A stretch of 26,977 nt of DNA from a virus. Position numbers and translations under genes: made by a program. Below are positions 188 to 9,679 of the stretch, one piece after another; positions within the stretch are counted from its first letter, which is position 1, and each line of letters starts with the position of its first letter. A model generated the notes under the pieces. The model saw nothing but the letters and a program-made list of their open reading frames with translations. It ran no database searches and was not told the origin of the DNA. Location of the stretch: positions 1-26,977 of the IMG/VR virus record IMGVR_UViG_3300035034_001047; one strand, 5' to 3'.

Positions 188-1357
188 TTAAGCACATTTA
201 CTTGTGCCACACGTTTTACAAATCAAACACGATTCAGCATATTCGATTTGGCAATCATCACCATCGTTAGGACAATCCAATGGATTATCTTTTATTAATT
301 TTTCTGCTCTTGTAGTATCTATATATTTCTTTAATTGTCTTGCAATAGCTTTACTAAACGAAACAATAGATCCTTCTGCTTTTTCTAATTGTTCAACGAC
401 AAAATCTATCTTCGCCCCATGTCGTAATGAAGTAGAGATCAATCTTGTTATAGCAACTTCTTCATCTGTATTTGTTTCAGTAATGTTATCTTCAACTCCA
501 CCATTTACAAAGTTATAGTGTCCTGATTTAATTTTTACCATTTCACCTACATCTTTATGTTTTCCATATTTACCCTTTACAGCAAATACTTCGTATGGGA
601 ATTCATTCATTATACCCACAAATACTGTCCACTGTTCACCCTTTGCTACAGTGTGATAAACATCACAATATAACGATTTAGGTCTTTTAGGTGCATTATT
701 ATGAATAATCTTATCCAGTGAATCTTTTTTGGATTTTGTATTCAGTACACCTGTTCGACATTCATCTCTATATACTGTTATTCCTTTACAACCACTTTTC
801 CAAGCTGTCATATATACATCATTTACTACATCTACTGATATATCTTTTGGTAAGTTTACGGTTACTGATATAGAGTGATCTATATGTTTTTGAACCCGTC
901 CTTGCATTTCTACCTTTTTGACCCAATCTACATCATTTGCGGTTGTACCATGATATGGTGATTTTCTTCTCCACTCATCCGCCTCAACTTTTGTTAAATT
1001 AATAATTTCATCCTCTGATAATCCATTTATTTTTAAAAATAGTTTAAATGTTGGGTGAAATACTGGAAACTCTTGCCAAGAATCTCCCATTTCATCAGTG
1101 TAATCAACTCTTACGTTTGCATCATTTGGATTGACCTTCTTAGAACGGAAATATACAATAGAAAATACGTTTTCAATTCCAGACGATGTTTGTGTCATTA
1201 AGGATGTAGTATTATGTGAAACAATACCATTATCTAATGTATAATAATTAGTATCATCAACTTCAATATCCATTGTATAATCGTTACATTGCTTCTTTTC
1301 TATTATTTTAATTGTGTCATAATTAACATTACTTAAATCTACTGTTTCATTTTCCAT
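188..1357 (-). CDS. nrdJ: Split NrdJ, C-terminal half: C-intein (49 aa) + C-extein of class II ribonucleotide reductase
   Basis: This 389-aa ORF starts with a 49-residue C-intein ending S-H-N (penultimate His48, Asn49), with the usual preceding pattern YTMDIEV...YYTLDNGIVSHN. The +1 extein residue is Thr50. From there TTSLMTQTSSGIENVF continues exactly where the N-half (2578..4401) breaks off at IAPTG; intact class II reductases read IAPTGT-SL at this point. The C-extein is 340 aa and ends in cysteine pairs (SCLICKTCGTSKCA) like the mobile tail that passes electrons from thioredoxin. After trans-splicing the enzyme would be about 830 aa. Its start overlaps the last 11 bases of the endonuclease gene, suggesting translational coupling. 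Function: reduction of ribonucleotides to deoxyribonucleotides with adenosylcobalamin. Confidence 0.9.
   Translation of the reverse strand: MENETVDLSNVNYDTIKIIEKKQCNDYTMDIEVDDTNYYTLDNGIVSHNTTSLMTQTSSGIENVFSIVYFRSKKVNPNDANVRVDYTDEMGDSWQEFPVFHPTFKLFLKINGLSEDEIINLTKVEADEWRRKSPYHGTTANDVDWVKKVEMQGRVQKHIDHSISVTVNLPKDISVDVVNDVYMTAWKSGCKGITVYRDECRTGVLNTKSKKDSLDKIIHNNAPKRPKSLYCDVYHTVAKGEQWTVFVGIMNEFPYEVFAVKGKYGKHKDVGEMVKIKSGHYNFVNGGVEDNITETNTDEEVAITRLISTSLRHGAKIDFVVEQLEKAEGSIVSFSKAIARQLKKYIDTTRAEKLIKDNPLDCPNDGDDCQIEYAESCLICKTCGTSKCA
1211..1357 (-). other. Split intein C-fragment (NrdJ)
   Basis: Residues 1-49 of the downstream NrdJ ORF. Intein C-terminal blocks are visible: D-I-E-V near residue 30 (block F region) and terminal V-S-H-N (block G). 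It pairs with the 117-aa N-fragment at 2581..2931. Size and position correspond to a canonical split at the site where homing endonucleases sit in contiguous inteins. Confidence 0.88.
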
Positions 1358-2504
1358 CTTTAATAATTTTTTTAATTTTACTCACTGTTTCATTAATGAC
1401 TTTTTGTTTATCATTATTATAATCACTTTCCCAAACTATAACTACATTGCATCCAAAGTGTTTTTTTAATATAGAAATACGATTTTTATCATTCTTTTGT
1501 ATTTTTTTTGATTCTTCATCTATATATTCATTCGGATTTCGATGCCAATAATCACCATAGAATTCAACTACTACATTGATATTTTTTATATATAAATCTG
1601 GTGAAATTATTGTATAATCGTCTTCGTGTATATAAAATTTATATTCATTATCACCATAATAGATTTTGTCATATATATCATTAAATTCATATGTTATTAG
1701 TTCAGCAAATTCAAGTCCGATATTTGAATATAAATTGGTAAATGAATTAACTTTATCAATTAATAATTGTTTGTATTTATTTTCACCTGCAATTTTACCA
1801 TATCTTTCAATATAATATTCAATAGTTTGTGAATATGATAGTCGTTCACAATATTTATTATACTTTTCAATACCTATGGGTTCACCATATCTTCGTATAA
1901 AATTATCAAGAGAATTTGATTTAGATAAATTTGTTTCTTGATATTTTTTCTTACCATCTTCTTTACCGTATTTTTCAATAAATTTAGATAATGTTGATGT
2001 TGACTGTCTATTAAATAATTTCTTCTTCGCTTTAGATAAATCGCCATCACATTGGTCAATCCAATATTCAATTGTAGTATTATATGATTTTTTATTACGG
2101 CTTTTATGTCCGCGGATTGATGCAATAGAGCATTTTCGTTTAAATTCTTCATATTTTTTCAACCCATCAACTTTGCCATGCCTTCTTATAAAGTTTTCCT
2201 TAGTTCCAGCTGTTTTTTTATTCTTTTCATTATACTTTTTCGTACCCAATTGTTTACCATGTCTATTTATAAATCCATTCAAAGTAGGGTCTCGTTTTTT
2301 ATCTACTTCTTTCTTTTTTTCATTATAAAGTTTAGTTCCTTCTACTTTTCCATATTTATAAATATATTTTTCAAGTGAAAATGATCGTAAAAAAGACCAA
2401 TATTCATTTATAATTTCTTGAGTTTCACCATCATATTTTTCTACAAGTTCTTTCCACTTTTTAGGATATGAAATTGTTTTAGGTTTCTTTTTTTGTTTAG
2501 ACAT
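1347..2504 (-). CDS. Free-standing Vsr-like (EDxHD-type) homing endonuclease between the nrdJ halves
   Basis: The frame is open back to a GTG at 2537, but the ATG at 2504 (MSKQKKKPKT) is the better start, giving 385 aa. The C-terminal third holds a Vsr/PD-(D/E)xK-like nuclease core: SPDLYIKN, then VVVEFYGDYWHRNP, then VVIVWESDYNN. The N-terminal two thirds carry at least six copies of [FY]-I-x-[RK]-[HY]-G-x3-G-x2-[KL]-Y, at residues 58, 89, 116, 186, 213 and 242 counted from the GTG; a weaker one lies near 158. These are probably tandem DNA-binding modules. The gene sits exactly between the split-intein halves, the arrangement described as fractured genes in environmental phage data. It presumably cuts intein-free nrdJ alleles to spread the cassette. 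The fold is judged from motifs only. Confidence 0.85.
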   Translation of the reverse strand: MSKQKKKPKTISYPKKWKELVEKYDGETQEIINEYWSFLRSFSLEKYIYKYGKVEGTKLYNEKKKEVDKKRDPTLNGFINRHGKQLGTKKYNEKNKKTAGTKENFIRRHGKVDGLKKYEEFKRKCSIASIRGHKSRNKKSYNTTIEYWIDQCDGDLSKAKKKLFNRQSTSTLSKFIEKYGKEDGKKKYQETNLSKSNSLDNFIRRYGEPIGIEKYNKYCERLSYSQTIEYYIERYGKIAGENKYKQLLIDKVNSFTNLYSNIGLEFAELITYEFNDIYDKIYYGDNEYKFYIHEDDYTIISPDLYIKNINVVVEFYGDYWHRNPNEYIDEESKKIQKNDKNRISILKKHFGCNVVIVWESDYNNDKQKVINETVSKIKKIIKDGK

Positions 2505-2536
2505 AATATTGATTTTATTTAATATATTAACAACCA

Positions 2537-2556
2537 CTCCTGTATAAGTATAGGAG
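2537..2556 (-). promoter_or_regulatory. Dyad centred on a TATACTTATA promoter-like motif, upstream of the endonuclease
   Basis: On the minus strand this reads CTCCTATACTTATACAGGAG. The arms (2549-2556 and 2537-2544) form an 8-bp stem with one G-U pair and a 4-nt loop. The decamer TATACTTATA (2543-2552), shared with upstream regions of sheath and tube, lies at its centre, 39 bases before the endonuclease ATG. A late promoter would start RNA near the 3' arm, so the hairpin would form only in read-through RNA from the nrdJ N-half. It could alternatively act as a weak terminator. Confidence 0.45.
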
Positions 2557-2577
2557 TAATAGTTAAAACGTTAAAAA

Positions 2578-4401
2578 TTATTCAATTAATTTCACAATTT
2601 CATCACCTTCTTTCAATTCATCAACAGTTTTCCATTTTGCAATATTATTCTCATAATCTATAATAACTAAAAACTTATGTATTTTTGATGTTGATACAGT
2701 AGAATCATCTGAAAATAAAAGTTTATAACCATCTGTCATACCATTCCAATATAATTTAGTTATTTTATGTTCATTGCCATTTATATCATATACATTAAAA
2801 TCATCCATTATATTAAACCATTCATTTTTCATATTCTTTAGATCATCAATAAGAATACCATTTTCTTTAAATAAATTTTCTAATGTTAATACACCTTTAT
2901 CTGTTTTAATTTTAGTATCTTTGTCTAAACAACCAGTCGGGGCTATCGTAGATATTGCTATATTTCGTCTTCCCGATCTTTGTAGCCTGTTCCATAATTC
3001 TTCATTTTCACTTTTCAATCGTAATAAAAACGGATTATTAATTTCTCTTTCTGGATCCCAAATTGGGAAGCATCCACGTTCTTCTGCCATAATAATAGAT
3101 GATTCATATTCTTTATGTTTTTTTCGTTTCATTAATTCATCTACAAAATCATTACCACTATCTGAACCATATCGTATTCCTAGACCTGCCAACATATCAC
3201 CAAGTGCAGTAATACCAAATCCAGTACGTCTACCTCTTTCCGCCTTATCCTTAATCGTTTTCCATAAGTTTAATTCAACGAACTTTATTTCATCAGGTTC
3301 TTCATCATTTTCTATTTTATGAATAATTTTATTAACAGATTCCAATTCTAAATCAACGATATTATCCATTAAACGTTGTCCCAATCTCACTTGTCTATCA
3401 AATTCATTCCAATCAAAATACGCATCTTCAGTGAATGGATGAATCACAAATGACCATAAATTTAATGCAAGTAACCGGCAAGAATCTCCGTTGCAGAGGA
3501 CGATTTCTCCACAAGGATTTGTTGAAACCGATTTGTATCCTAAATCTGCATAACAATCTGGAAGGGATTCTCTAATAATCGTATCCCAAAACATAAGTCC
3601 AGGCTCTGCACGCGCATGGGCGTTCTTTACAGTAGTATCCCAAATTTCTTGTGGATTCACTACCTTAGTAACTTGAGCTTCTTCTATTGGTTTATCAGTT
3701 GGCCAATATAATGTAAATTCAGTATCGCCCCGATCTACTGCTTCCAAAAATGTATCATATTGTCTTATGGATATATTTGCACCAGTAACTTTAGTTTCAT
3801 CCATTTTAATATCTATAAACTTTTCAACATCTGGATGTAGTCCACTAATTGTCAACATTAGCGCCCCGCGTCTTCCTGATTGAGCTACTTCACGAGTAGT
3901 ATTTGAGTATCGCTCCATAAAGGATACTGCCCCAGTTGAAGTTCTTGCTGCATTATTGACGGGAGTATGTTCAGGGCGAAGATGTGATAAATCAGTACCA
4001 ACACCTGCCCTTCGTTTCATTAGATGTGTCAACTGTTCATCGGTTCTCATAATACCACCATATGAGTCTGAAGGATTATGAACGACAAAACAATTGGATA
4101 AACTCATTATTTGATATGAGTTCCCTATACCTGCCATTGGCGATCCTTGAGGGATCAAATATTTAAAATCCTTTAATGAATTATAAATTTCTTCATAGGG
4201 AGTAGGATTTGGATAATTTAATTCTATTCTATACAACTCACTTGCGAGTCGTTTATGCATATCATCAGGTGTAGCTTCATATAAATTACCTTCATTATCT
4301 TTTAATGCGTATTTATCTAAAAAAACACTAGCTTCTAAGTTTGAGCCATTAAAATATTCTTCGGATAGGTGTAACGCTTTTTCATAATCAATTTTTTTCA
4401 T
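2578..4401 (-). CDS. nrdJ: Split NrdJ, N-terminal half: class II ribonucleotide reductase N-extein + 117-aa N-intein
   Basis: A 607-aa ORF. Residues 1-490 are the catalytic barrel of an adenosylcobalamin-dependent reductase. Visible marks: LSNCFVV (Cys104) and SCRLLALNL (Cys308) as the redox pair, STNPCGE with Asn295-Cys297-Glu299 as the radical/catalytic triad, and GRRGALMLTI plus KVTGANISI typical of NrdJ. At Cys491, right after IAPTG, the intein begins: CLDKDTKIKTDKG (block A) and STSKIHKFLV (block B, His about 85 of the intein), ending after 117 residues. The rest of the enzyme is at 188..1210. The insertion is in the conserved APTG-T loop, not at the NPC active-site loop, which is intact. 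A TATACTTATA-like element lies about 34 bases upstream, preceded by a terminator for the previous gene. Confidence 0.92.
   Translation of the reverse strand: MKKIDYEKALHLSEEYFNGSNLEASVFLDKYALKDNEGNLYEATPDDMHKRLASELYRIELNYPNPTPYEEIYNSLKDFKYLIPQGSPMAGIGNSYQIMSLSNCFVVHNPSDSYGGIMRTDEQLTHLMKRRAGVGTDLSHLRPEHTPVNNAARTSTGAVSFMERYSNTTREVAQSGRRGALMLTISGLHPDVEKFIDIKMDETKVTGANISIRQYDTFLEAVDRGDTEFTLYWPTDKPIEEAQVTKVVNPQEIWDTTVKNAHARAEPGLMFWDTIIRESLPDCYADLGYKSVSTNPCGEIVLCNGDSCRLLALNLWSFVIHPFTEDAYFDWNEFDRQVRLGQRLMDNIVDLELESVNKIIHKIENDEEPDEIKFVELNLWKTIKDKAERGRRTGFGITALGDMLAGLGIRYGSDSGNDFVDELMKRKKHKEYESSIIMAEERGCFPIWDPEREINNPFLLRLKSENEELWNRLQRSGRRNIAISTIAPTGCLDKDTKIKTDKGVLTLENLFKENGILIDDLKNMKNEWFNIMDDFNVYDINGNEHKITKLYWNGMTDGYKLLFSDDSTVSTSKIHKFLVIIDYENNIAKWKTVDELKEGDEIVKLIE
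2581..2931 (-). other. Split intein N-fragment (NrdJ), 117 aa
   Basis: Begins with nucleophile Cys1 immediately after IAPTG and contains blocks A and B, so it is a canonical N-half. It ends with a stop at 2578, before the endonuclease gene. Its partner is at 1211..1357. Combined intein length is 166 aa, typical of a mini-intein without an internal endonuclease. Confidence 0.88.
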
Positions 4402-4866: not shown

Positions 4867-5309
4867 AGTATTCGTTTTTCATTATGTTTTATAACCCACT
4901 CATATTCTTCTAAATTTGTTTCATCCGGAGAGTGTTTAACCTCATAAAGTAAAGCATCCAATTCAGGTATATTATCAGTATAATAATCAATAATTGCATC
5001 TTTGTATTCATTATCGGTATTGAACTCATAATCATACTCGTCCAATTTCCACCCAAAATCTATTATTTGTTGGTGGTGTCTAAATTCATGTGATATAGTT
5101 GCTTCATTCTGATCTTCTCTTATAAGTAAAATTCCTCTTTCCATTGTATATTCTCTTCCATCCACATATATTTCAGAATATTTATTAGGTGAATAATATC
5201 CACCTGCGAAATCATATTCATCTACACTGATTATGATGATATCAGGGATTGATATATCCTTTGGAAACTTTAACCAATTTAATTCTAATGATGGATTTTT
5301 TATTTTCAA
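4863..5309 (-). CDS. Putative zincin-like metallopeptidase domain protein
   Basis: A 148-aa protein not recognised as a named family. It contains ATISHEFRHHQQ with H74-E75-x-x-H78, the HExxH zinc-binding helix of zincin metalloproteases. The hydrophobic-acidic lead-in (ILLIREDQNEATIS) is what such a helix usually has. An acidic C-terminal half (YEFNTDNEYKDAI...) could supply the third ligand, but I cannot identify it. No signal peptide or membrane segment, so it would act in the cytoplasm. It overlaps both neighbours by 4 bases, forming a coupled trio with the deleted methyltransferase and the SLOG gene. A chance HExxH is possible, but the context is typical. Confidence 0.6.
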   Translation of the reverse strand: MKIKNPSLELNWLKFPKDISIPDIIIISVDEYDFAGGYYSPNKYSEIYVDGREYTMERGILLIREDQNEATISHEFRHHQQIIDFGWKLDEYDYEFNTDNEYKDAIIDYYTDNIPELDALLYEVKHSPDETNLEEYEWVIKHNEKRIL

Positions 5310-5614
5310 AAATCAAAAAATTTATTTATGGTTTCTTGTTGTTTTTTAGGTATTATTTCAGTGGTTCCCTTCATTGCATTTTCAATCCTCGCCGTTGCTA
5401 TATCAAAAAATTCATCTTCCATTTCCATTCCGATAAATGAAAAACCACCAAGACGTTTGACTGCCTTACCTGTACTACCCGATCCCATATACGGATCTAA
5501 TACCGTTCCATTTGGTGGGTCTGTAACGATACTATCCGATTGAAGCTCATGACTAAACTCCTTTAATAACTCATAGTTATCCCCATGTAGTAATTGTATA
5601 GTATTTTGTGTCAT
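5306..5614 (-). pseudogene. DNA methyltransferase remnant with large in-frame internal deletion
   Basis: A 102-aa ORF that looks like both ends of an N4/N6 (beta-order) DNA methyltransferase joined together. Residues 1-34 (IQLLHGDNYELL...DSIVTDPP) are the N-terminus with the start of catalytic motif IV, which should read DPPY. The next residues are already NGTVLDPYMGSGSTGKA, the AdoMet-binding motif I found near the C-terminus, followed by the normal ending. The Tyr of DPPY and the whole target-recognition region, probably 100-200 residues, are missing, so it should not methylate DNA. The frame stays open. Start and stop overlaps are normal, so the small product may still be made. An assembly error at this junction is the main alternative. 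Confidence 0.75.
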
Positions 5615-8042: not shown

Positions 8043-8867
8043 TTATTCATCTTCTGACTCATCTATTTCTAATGTATCTGGATCTATCTTACCACTTTTA
8101 TACTTTGTAATAATATTATCACATATTTTTTCATATATTTCAGCACGAAGTTCATCCCTAGTTTCCATCATTTCTATGAAATCTTTTGATTGAAATTTTA
8201 TTTCTTCTTTATCATTCCCCTCAAATACATATGTATACCATGCGCCACCCTGTTTAACTAATTTATTATCTTTCATTACAGTTAACCAACTACCATAATC
8301 ATCTATACCACTATCAAAGAATATATCAAAATCTGCAGATCTCAGTGGTGGACCCATTCTGTTTTTTACAATTTGAGCTCGGATTTTCATCCCTATAATT
8401 CTATCTTGTCCGTTTACTTTTTGTTTAATTCTACCTAATGATTTTAAACGAATGCGTACAGATGAATGGAAAGCAAGACTCTTACCTCCGCTTGTTGTAT
8501 TATGGTTCAATCTACCATTGGCTAAATACGAATGTAAATCCTCAACTTCTATATCCGCAACATACATTTTACCGTCAACTTTATTAAAATCCGGATGGTC
8601 TTTTGCAAAAATAGTGGTTCCATTTTCTATAAAGCGATGATTACTTGTTACCCTAATATCACCATCAGTATAATATTCATTTACAGTATCTTTAATCAAA
8701 AAATTCTGTATTGGTTTATATACCTCATTACCACCTTCATCAAGTGTCAATACATCAACACCTAAATCTTCAACATCATATGCATTTGGTTCTGAGTAAT
8801 TATTTACTCCAATAAATCTATCAGCAAACTCTGCTAATGTTAATTCTTCTTCTATATAAGATTCCAT
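8043..8867 (-). CDS. uvsX: Split UvsX, C-terminal half: 123-aa C-intein + recombinase C-extein
   Basis: A 274-aa ORF. Residues 1-123 are an unusually long C-intein containing block B (DIRVTSNHRF, T74-x-x-H77), normally in the N-fragment, plus the C-terminal blocks (MYVADIEVEDLHSYLANG and LNHN, His122-Asn123). The extein starts at Thr124: TTSGGKSLAFHSSVRIRL, the conserved segment that follows NQLR...DPW in UvsX/RecA, then GMKIRAQIVKNRMGPPLR and an acidic tail. The N-half is 8933..9679. The spliced protein would be about 371 aa, near the usual UvsX length. The start is the ATG at 8867, overlapping the endonuclease relic. Function: strand exchange in recombination-dependent replication. Confidence 0.9.
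   Translation of the reverse strand: MESYIEEELTLAEFADRFIGVNNYSEPNAYDVEDLGVDVLTLDEGGNEVYKPIQNFLIKDTVNEYYTDGDIRVTSNHRFIENGTTIFAKDHPDFNKVDGKMYVADIEVEDLHSYLANGRLNHNTTSGGKSLAFHSSVRIRLKSLGRIKQKVNGQDRIIGMKIRAQIVKNRMGPPLRSADFDIFFDSGIDDYGSWLTVMKDNKLVKQGGAWYTYVFEGNDKEEIKFQSKDFIEMMETRDELRAEIYEKICDNIITKYKSGKIDPDTLEIDESEDE
8499..8867 (-). other. Atypical split intein C-fragment (UvsX), 123 aa
   Basis: Contains block B as well as blocks F and G, so the split lies between blocks A and B. Almost the whole intein fold is in this fragment, in contrast to the nrdJ intein in the same window. Catalytic His122-Asn123 and +1 Thr are intact. Confidence 0.88.
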
Positions 8868-8932
8868 ATTTTATTTTTTACCTCATTTATGTTATTTTTA
8901 ATATCACTTTCCCAAAATGATAACAACTTTTT
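8852..8932 (-). pseudogene. C-terminal relic of a Vsr-like homing endonuclease between the uvsX halves
   Basis: Right after the stop of the uvsX N-half, the frame reads KKLLSFWESDIKNNINEVK...IWNLI and then TAG. This matches the end of the nrdJ endonuclease (VVIVWESDYNNDKQKV..., ending just inside the C-intein gene). The shared pieces are the hydrophobic strand, W-E-S-D, the following Asn-rich turn, a Lys-rich helix, and the position overlapping the start of the C-intein ORF by 16 bases. There is no start codon and nothing of the nuclease core remains upstream. I infer that an endonuclease gene once filled this gap and was deleted except for its last 26 codons, which may be kept because they overlap the next gene's start. 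Confidence 0.75.
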
Positions 8933-9679
8933 TTATAATTTAATCAACTTTGTATCGTATTTTAATTTTAAATCAACTTTGTATCGTATTTTAATTTTAG
9001 TGGTCAACGGGTCAACACACCACGGATCTGAAAATGGCATTGCGTTCATTTTTTGTCGTAATTGATTAGTAAAAATTAGAGTTACCTTTTGTCTACCAAT
9101 CATATTTGTTATCTTACGAAGTGCCTTTGATATGATTATTGCTTTATCGGTTGCGTAACCATCCTTATCAAAATCGGCATTTATTTCTGTTTTAGTTGAA
9201 GCGGCAGCAACAGAATCCGTTACAATCGTGACCATTTTATCTTTATCTGAACTTCGTACTTTTTCAATAATAGTTTCAATAGTTTCAAAAATTTGTTCAA
9301 CTGAATCAGCTGTAACATATAATAGTTTCGATACATCAACGCCAATTGCATCAAAGAACTCTCTTGATACAGCGGTTTCAGTATCAATCAATACCGCTAG
9401 CCCACCCTTTTTCTGTGTAGATGCCAATGCGTGTGCGGATACTAAACTTTTTCCACTCTGTTCTAACCCAGTGATTTCCAATATACGACCTACAGGCACC
9501 CCGCCATTTGGTCTATTAGATATGGCTAAATCCAACATTGCCGAACCAGTGGATATCCACCCGCCTACATTTGTTGGTGCTTCTTCAGAGTCTAAAAAGA
9601 ATGCAACTTTTTGGTCTTTATTAGCTTTGTTTAAAGAATCCGCTAATATTTGTGCTAAATTTTCTTCTTTTTTTGACAT
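8933..9679 (-). CDS. uvsX: Split UvsX, N-terminal half: recombinase N-extein + short N-intein
   Basis: A 248-aa ORF. Residues 1-220 are the RecA/UvsX ATPase core: Walker A GLEQSGKS (71-78), LIDTETAV with the catalytic Glu (about 101), Walker B VTIVTDSVAAA (about 150-160) and the L2-adjacent FTNQLRQKMNAMPFSDPW. At Cys221 an intein fragment begins: CVDPLTTKIKIRYKVD, extended by 12 residues to the stop. The extension is encoded by a perfect 29-bp tandem repeat; with one copy removed the frame stops right after the 16th intein residue. The C-half is 8043..8867. It lies 74 bases after the gp32-like gene, separated by a hairpin. No Shine-Dalgarno is obvious; the leader is A-rich. Confidence 0.92.
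   Translation of the reverse strand: MSKKEENLAQILADSLNKANKDQKVAFFLDSEEAPTNVGGWISTGSAMLDLAISNRPNGGVPVGRILEITGLEQSGKSLVSAHALASTQKKGGLAVLIDTETAVSREFFDAIGVDVSKLLYVTADSVEQIFETIETIIEKVRSSDKDKMVTIVTDSVAAASTKTEINADFDKDGYATDKAIIISKALRKITNMIGRQKVTLIFTNQLRQKMNAMPFSDPWCVDPLTTKIKIRYKVDLKLKYDTKLIKL
8936..9019 (-). other. Atypical ultra-short split intein N-fragment (UvsX), 28 aa (16-aa core)
   Basis: Starts at Cys1 after DPW and contains only block A. The 16-residue core occupies 8972-9019; the last 12 residues come from the duplicated 29-bp unit. A 16-residue N-fragment has been reported for an environmental UvsX split intein (VidaL), so the core length fits a known class. Confidence 0.85.
8942..8999. 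repeat. Perfect 29-bp tandem duplication at the end of the UvsX N-intein
   Basis: Positions 8942-8970 and 8971-8999 are identical. Because 29 is not a multiple of 3, the second copy shifts the frame past the ancestral stop and adds 12 residues to the N-intein. The perfect identity in an AT-rich genome suggests a recent event. Confidence 0.97.

Follow-up and report, generated by a model that had tools for sequence, protein, structure and literature searches.

The divided uvsX gene

The window, i.e., the whole stretch of viral DNA that was analysed (26,977 bases, IMG/VR record IMGVR_UViG_3300035034_001047), carries uvsX, the gene for a recombinase of DNA repair, as two minus-strand open reading frames (ORFs) which are divided exactly at DPW|TTSGG. 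The source phage was most likely an uncultured, T4-like myovirus, since the tail sheath encoded in the window was closest to those of Microcystis phage Mel-JY01 and Flavobacterium phage immuto. The N-half ORF (9679..8933, 248 amino acids) ends in MPFSDPW|CVDPLTTKIKIRYKVDLKLKYDTKLIKL, followed by a TAA stop codon (8933-8935); the C-half ORF (8867..8043, 274 amino acids) has its own start codon and contains YLANGRLNHN|TTSGGKS. On the minus strand, the N-half comprises the UvsX N-extein (residues 1-220, 9020..9679), ending with DPW, and the N-terminal intein fragment (IntN), which consists of a core of 16 residues with Cys1 and block A (CVDPLTTKIKIRYKVD, 8972..9019) and an extension of 12 residues (LKLKYDTKLIKL, 8936..8971). 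The C-half comprises the C-terminal intein fragment (IntC; 123 residues, 8499..8867), with helix alpha-1, block B (TSNH) and blocks F/G ending in NHN, and the UvsX C-extein from TTSGGKS, i.e., from Thr+1 (8046..8498; stop codon 8043-8045). The original prediction had placed Cys1 and block A alone after DPW, and block B in the partner, which was confirmed in both ORFs; the partner of 123 amino acids it named is the intein part of the C-half, the ORF itself having 274.

Nothing was lost from the recombinase at the junction. The Pfam RecA profile is covered by the N-half from position 32 to 197 and by the C-half from 198 to 262; TIGR02012 likewise passes from one half to the other at profile position 201. 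In the uvsX genes of about 46 related IMG/VR contigs DPWTTSGG is contiguous; such intact genes, which the original prediction had considered as counter-evidence, are read as the expected empty site rather than as a refutation. Compared with intact relatives, both exteins showed dN (non-synonymous changes per site) of 0.14-0.30 and dS (synonymous changes per site) above 1 or saturated, which indicates purifying selection. The stretch of RecA aligned with the junction (GNPE|TTTGG) is the L2 DNA-binding loop, and separate, unspliced halves of UvsX should therefore be inactive.

The identification of IntC as part of an intein rests on several lines of evidence. By itself, IntC gave a weak score (0.0029) with Pfam Intein_splicing, and it exceeded the cut-off of NCBIfam intein_Cterm (20.8 versus 15.6 bits). 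A search of the PDB with the IntC of the window alone yielded matches at chance level only; the profile of the intein family (see below) was needed, and this matched the Spl DnaX mini-intein, a solved intein, with E=5.5e-4. The AlphaFold2 (AF2) model of IntC, with a predicted local distance difference test (pLDDT) score of 92.3, starts with a helix at residues 11-19, and Foldseek ranks 1-49 with this model were all solved inteins or related HINT domains; the match to the HINT fold applies to the model of IntC by itself. In the AF2 model of an unsplit relative (L073) the N-terminus was of low confidence, so that a docked IntN is not displayed. The split falls after strand beta-2, leaving helix alpha-1 in IntC (the S1 position), and unsplit relatives are joined at the same point. 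All splice residues are present in the window (Cys1, block B TSNH, NHN and Thr+1); the block B His, the C-terminal His-Asn and other positions were invariant in 14 family members. With the similarity of the 123-residue region to inteins found in fold, intein_Cterm and Spl DnaX matches, as the original prediction had proposed to examine, the reading of the interruption of uvsX as a split intein is supported, with an IntC modelled in the HINT fold.

Length and history of IntN

A perfect tandem duplication of 29 nucleotides (nt) occupies 8942..8999 (copies at 8942-8970 and 8971-8999; unit TAAAATTAAAATACGATACAAAGTTGATT). Tandem Repeats Finder reported 100% matches, and no other perfect tandem repeat with a period of 15-60 exists in the window; its self-match run was 29, versus 9-13 in 20 Markov simulations. 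Deletion of either copy gives CVDPLTTKIKIRYKVD followed by TAA, that is, an IntN of 16 residues. Since 29 is not a multiple of three, the frame now runs past the original TAA, and IntN has 28 residues, the last 12 of which (8971-8936) are the extension. Both the short frame obtained by deletion and the 12-residue extension had been predicted and were borne out, with the repeat now refined to a perfect tandem pair. The duplication was also found in L062 and L068. A resemblance between YDTKLIKL in the extension and the tail YHTKLMKI of relatives with a long IntN was set aside, the extension being an out-of-frame reading of the repeat.

Relatives of the intein were collected with a DNA pattern for DPWC-xDP and an IntC profile, and all are inserted at one site of uvsX/recA. 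Counting distinct alleles with both parts recovered, 30 were split, their IntN ranging from 15 to 41 residues, and nine more were unsplit. The lengths of IntN (alleles in brackets) were 15 (13), 16 (2), 17 (3), 18 (1), 20 (2), 22 (1) and 23 (1) residues, then 28 in the lineage of the window, and 32 (2), 35 (2), 39 (1) and 41 (1). The first 13 positions of IntN were conserved across the family. No member was found among isolated phages, where a match to a Cellulophaga recA proved to be intein-free, nor in GTDB genomes.

Between the halves of uvsX in the window lie 65 nt, without an ORF for a free-standing endonuclease. In most relatives with a short IntN this place is taken by an ORF of about 280-370 amino acids; some members of this ORF family are weakly similar to DUF559/Vsr-like nucleases. 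A hidden Markov model built from 21 endonucleases of the intein family detected the last 24 or so endonuclease codons between the halves, with E=8.7e-5 in the window (8858..8929, minus strand, KLLSFWESDIKNNINEVKNKIWNL, in a reading frame different from that of IntC) and E=2.9e-8 in the sister contig L068, which retains 41 nt more. What persists here is a fossil, the 3' end of a homing endonuclease gene. It points to an ancestral order of IntN, endonuclease, IntC, with later loss of the endonuclease, and is support for a short ancestral IntN that does not depend on the repeat. In L072 and L126 a different-looking ORF of 147 residues replaces the usual endonuclease.

The original prediction of an ancestral IntN of 16 residues is supported, in the sense of the state before the duplication, since 19 of the 30 split alleles have an IntN of 15-18 residues, since the intein tree places the window among short alleles with an IntN of 15-17 residues (support 81/83), and because of the fossil. 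From these sequence data, 16 residues was most likely the length just before the duplication; it was not necessarily the deepest ancestral length.

Taken together, uvsX of the window is very probably produced as two proteins which are joined by an S1-split intein, whose history led from an IntN of 16 residues through endonuclease loss and duplication to the present state. Anatomy and history are read from sequence evidence, and the splicing steps follow established intein chemistry. The ancestral locus would have resembled that of most relatives, with an IntN of 16 residues, a free-standing endonuclease gene and IntC; the endonuclease gene would then have been lost except for its last 24 or so codons, and the duplication would have moved the frame of IntN past its stop codon. 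The gene is now interrupted, within the stretch aligned with the DNA-binding loop of RecA, by an intein whose halves part behind the second beta strand, and two products would be made, UvsX-N with IntN as C-terminal tail and IntC fused to UvsX-C. IntN should dock into IntC, whose HINT fold is almost complete; Cys1 would perform the N-S shift, and Thr+1 would then receive the N-extein in a branched intermediate. Cyclisation of the terminal Asn, presumably helped by the preceding His, would release contiguous UvsX (DPW-TTSGG).

Alternatives and related systems

Several points weigh against this interpretation. The position of the window in the intein tree has moderate support (81/83), the estimate of selection on the exteins also takes in the time before insertion, and no unduplicated allele was found in IMG/VR by exact-match search; moreover, splicing may be less active with the 12-residue extension. 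The endonuclease fossil and the extension would also be consistent with a decayed intein, where uvsX, after the duplication and the loss of the endonuclease, is no longer spliced, in a phage without UvsX or dependent on the RecA of its host. This appears improbable, since both ORFs are open and contain all splice residues, the exteins have low dN/dS, and the C-half matches that of L068 at all 825 nt and that of L003 at all but one codon; relatives, too, have longer IntN tails (32-41 residues) or inserted linkers at the same point. Even less probable is an originally long IntN (32-41 residues, as in L057, L065 and L086), which a frameshift would have cut to 16 residues before the duplication extended it again. 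Such a long class does exist, its tail is conserved between diverged members, and there is some local DNA similarity between the window and L057 around GATT..TTATAAA. However, the long class is set apart from the window by a single branch (support 86/74), its IntC starts next to or overlaps the stop codon of IntN, and the window still has the remains of an endonuclease gene, a feature of the short class.

The window is a single metagenomic contig, and the repeat or the division of the gene could have been an artefact of assembly or sequencing; this is refuted, because the same duplication and split recur in the near-identical contigs 3300023296_001057 and 3300035698_004979 from two metagenomes, with other differences between the contigs. 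An RNA intron or a programmed frameshift, suggested by group I introns near this place in the uvsX of relatives, is strongly disfavoured, and the intron reading of the junction was rejected: no Rfam match, and no intron match, was obtained in the window, the junction region lacks a stable RNA fold (z +2.0), the C-half has a separate start codon, and IntC has the predicted fold of an intein.

The split intein of the window is probably a new natural member of the rare, VidaL-like, atypically split class, endonuclease-free and partly decayed; its IntN has 28 residues now and 16 without the duplication. The VidaL inteins presumably include one from UvsX, as the original prediction also stated. By its description, VidaL is a natural, atypically split, Cys1-dependent intein with an S1 split after beta strand 2 and an IntN of 16 amino acids (PMC13014065); this is the length in the window before the duplication, whereas IntN of the window now has 28 residues. 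The PolB16 OarG split intein of a DNA polymerase gene has an S1 split, an IntN of 15 amino acids and Ser1/Ser+1, and it does not depend on the block B His as inteins usually do (PMC10189870). It shares the S1 split and the ultra-short IntN with the uvsX family, where 13 distinct alleles predict exactly 15 residues, but the uvsX intein has Cys1/Thr+1 and an invariant block B His. Two further natural split inteins with a short IntN, AceL-TerL (25 amino acids) and GOS-TerL (37 amino acids; both in PMC11766414), are split after helix alpha-1 at the S2 site (PMC13014065). In contrast, the uvsX intein of the window keeps this helix in IntC. Dassa et al. (2009; cited in PMC11766414) reportedly described genes fractured by split inteins, with free-standing endonucleases. 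Most uvsX relatives, as well as the nrdJ locus of the window, have this arrangement of IntN, endonuclease gene and IntC, whereas the endonuclease gene in uvsX of the window is reduced to a fossil.

In this nrdJ locus (188-4401, minus strand), a split intein whose IntN is long divides the gene for a class II ribonucleotide reductase, and an ORF for a Vsr-like endonuclease of 396 amino acids is still present between the halves. At 5306-5614 (minus strand) an ORF of 102 amino acids resembles an internally deleted DNA methyltransferase, with a DPPN motif directly followed by a C-terminal-looking VLDPYMGSGST motif.

Split and contiguous forms in the family

The class with a long IntN (32-41 residues) forms one branch, with the window outside, and its IntN stop adjoins or overlaps the start of IntC. 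Its IntN tail is probably functional, since non-synonymous changes per site were rarer there than synonymous ones. A few codons downstream in this clade lies a group I intron, mostly below the Rfam gathering score (L057, 4493-5585; L065, 2104-3204; L090, 3355-3771; L152, 4376-4587); those of L057 and L065 contain an endonuclease-like ORF. Given their closeness, one endonuclease might mobilise both intron and intein. The N-half of uvsX in L057 (5998-7167, minus strand) also carries a second, contiguous mini-intein in the Walker A region (GLEQ|CVTEDT...HN|SGKS). Another gene downstream of uvsX, that of the replicative helicase, is broken after GVGK in L073, L080 and L090 by an insert that resembles an additional intein, apparently a split one; an endonuclease-like ORF lies close by.

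The nine unsplit alleles were scattered through the tree, which requires nine changes, at least four of them by well-supported branches, and their linkers at the join vary in length. L073, with an unsplit intein, and L086, with a long split intein and an intron in the same place, have flanks that are 97% identical; the split L144 and the unsplit L150 share 98.7% identity over 4.3 kb, which reach as far as the split point. Tentatively, and at somewhat less than even chances, the inteins at this site may have alternated repeatedly between the split and the contiguous state, with endonuclease-less split forms fused again into contiguous inteins; the window would then stand midway, with an endonuclease fossil, separate halves and an IntN of drifting length.

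Protein semisynthesis places great value on very short natural IntN fragments, of which few have, to our knowledge, been described. With 30 split alleles, whose IntN ranges from 15 to 41 residues, and nine unsplit alleles, this one uvsX site offers a series on the minimal length of IntN and the role of its tail, in which the window, with 16 residues before and 28 after the duplication, is an experiment of nature on length. The family around the window is more interesting than the window itself, and new biology may be found there; it makes the origin of split inteins, and the reversibility of the split, directly testable.
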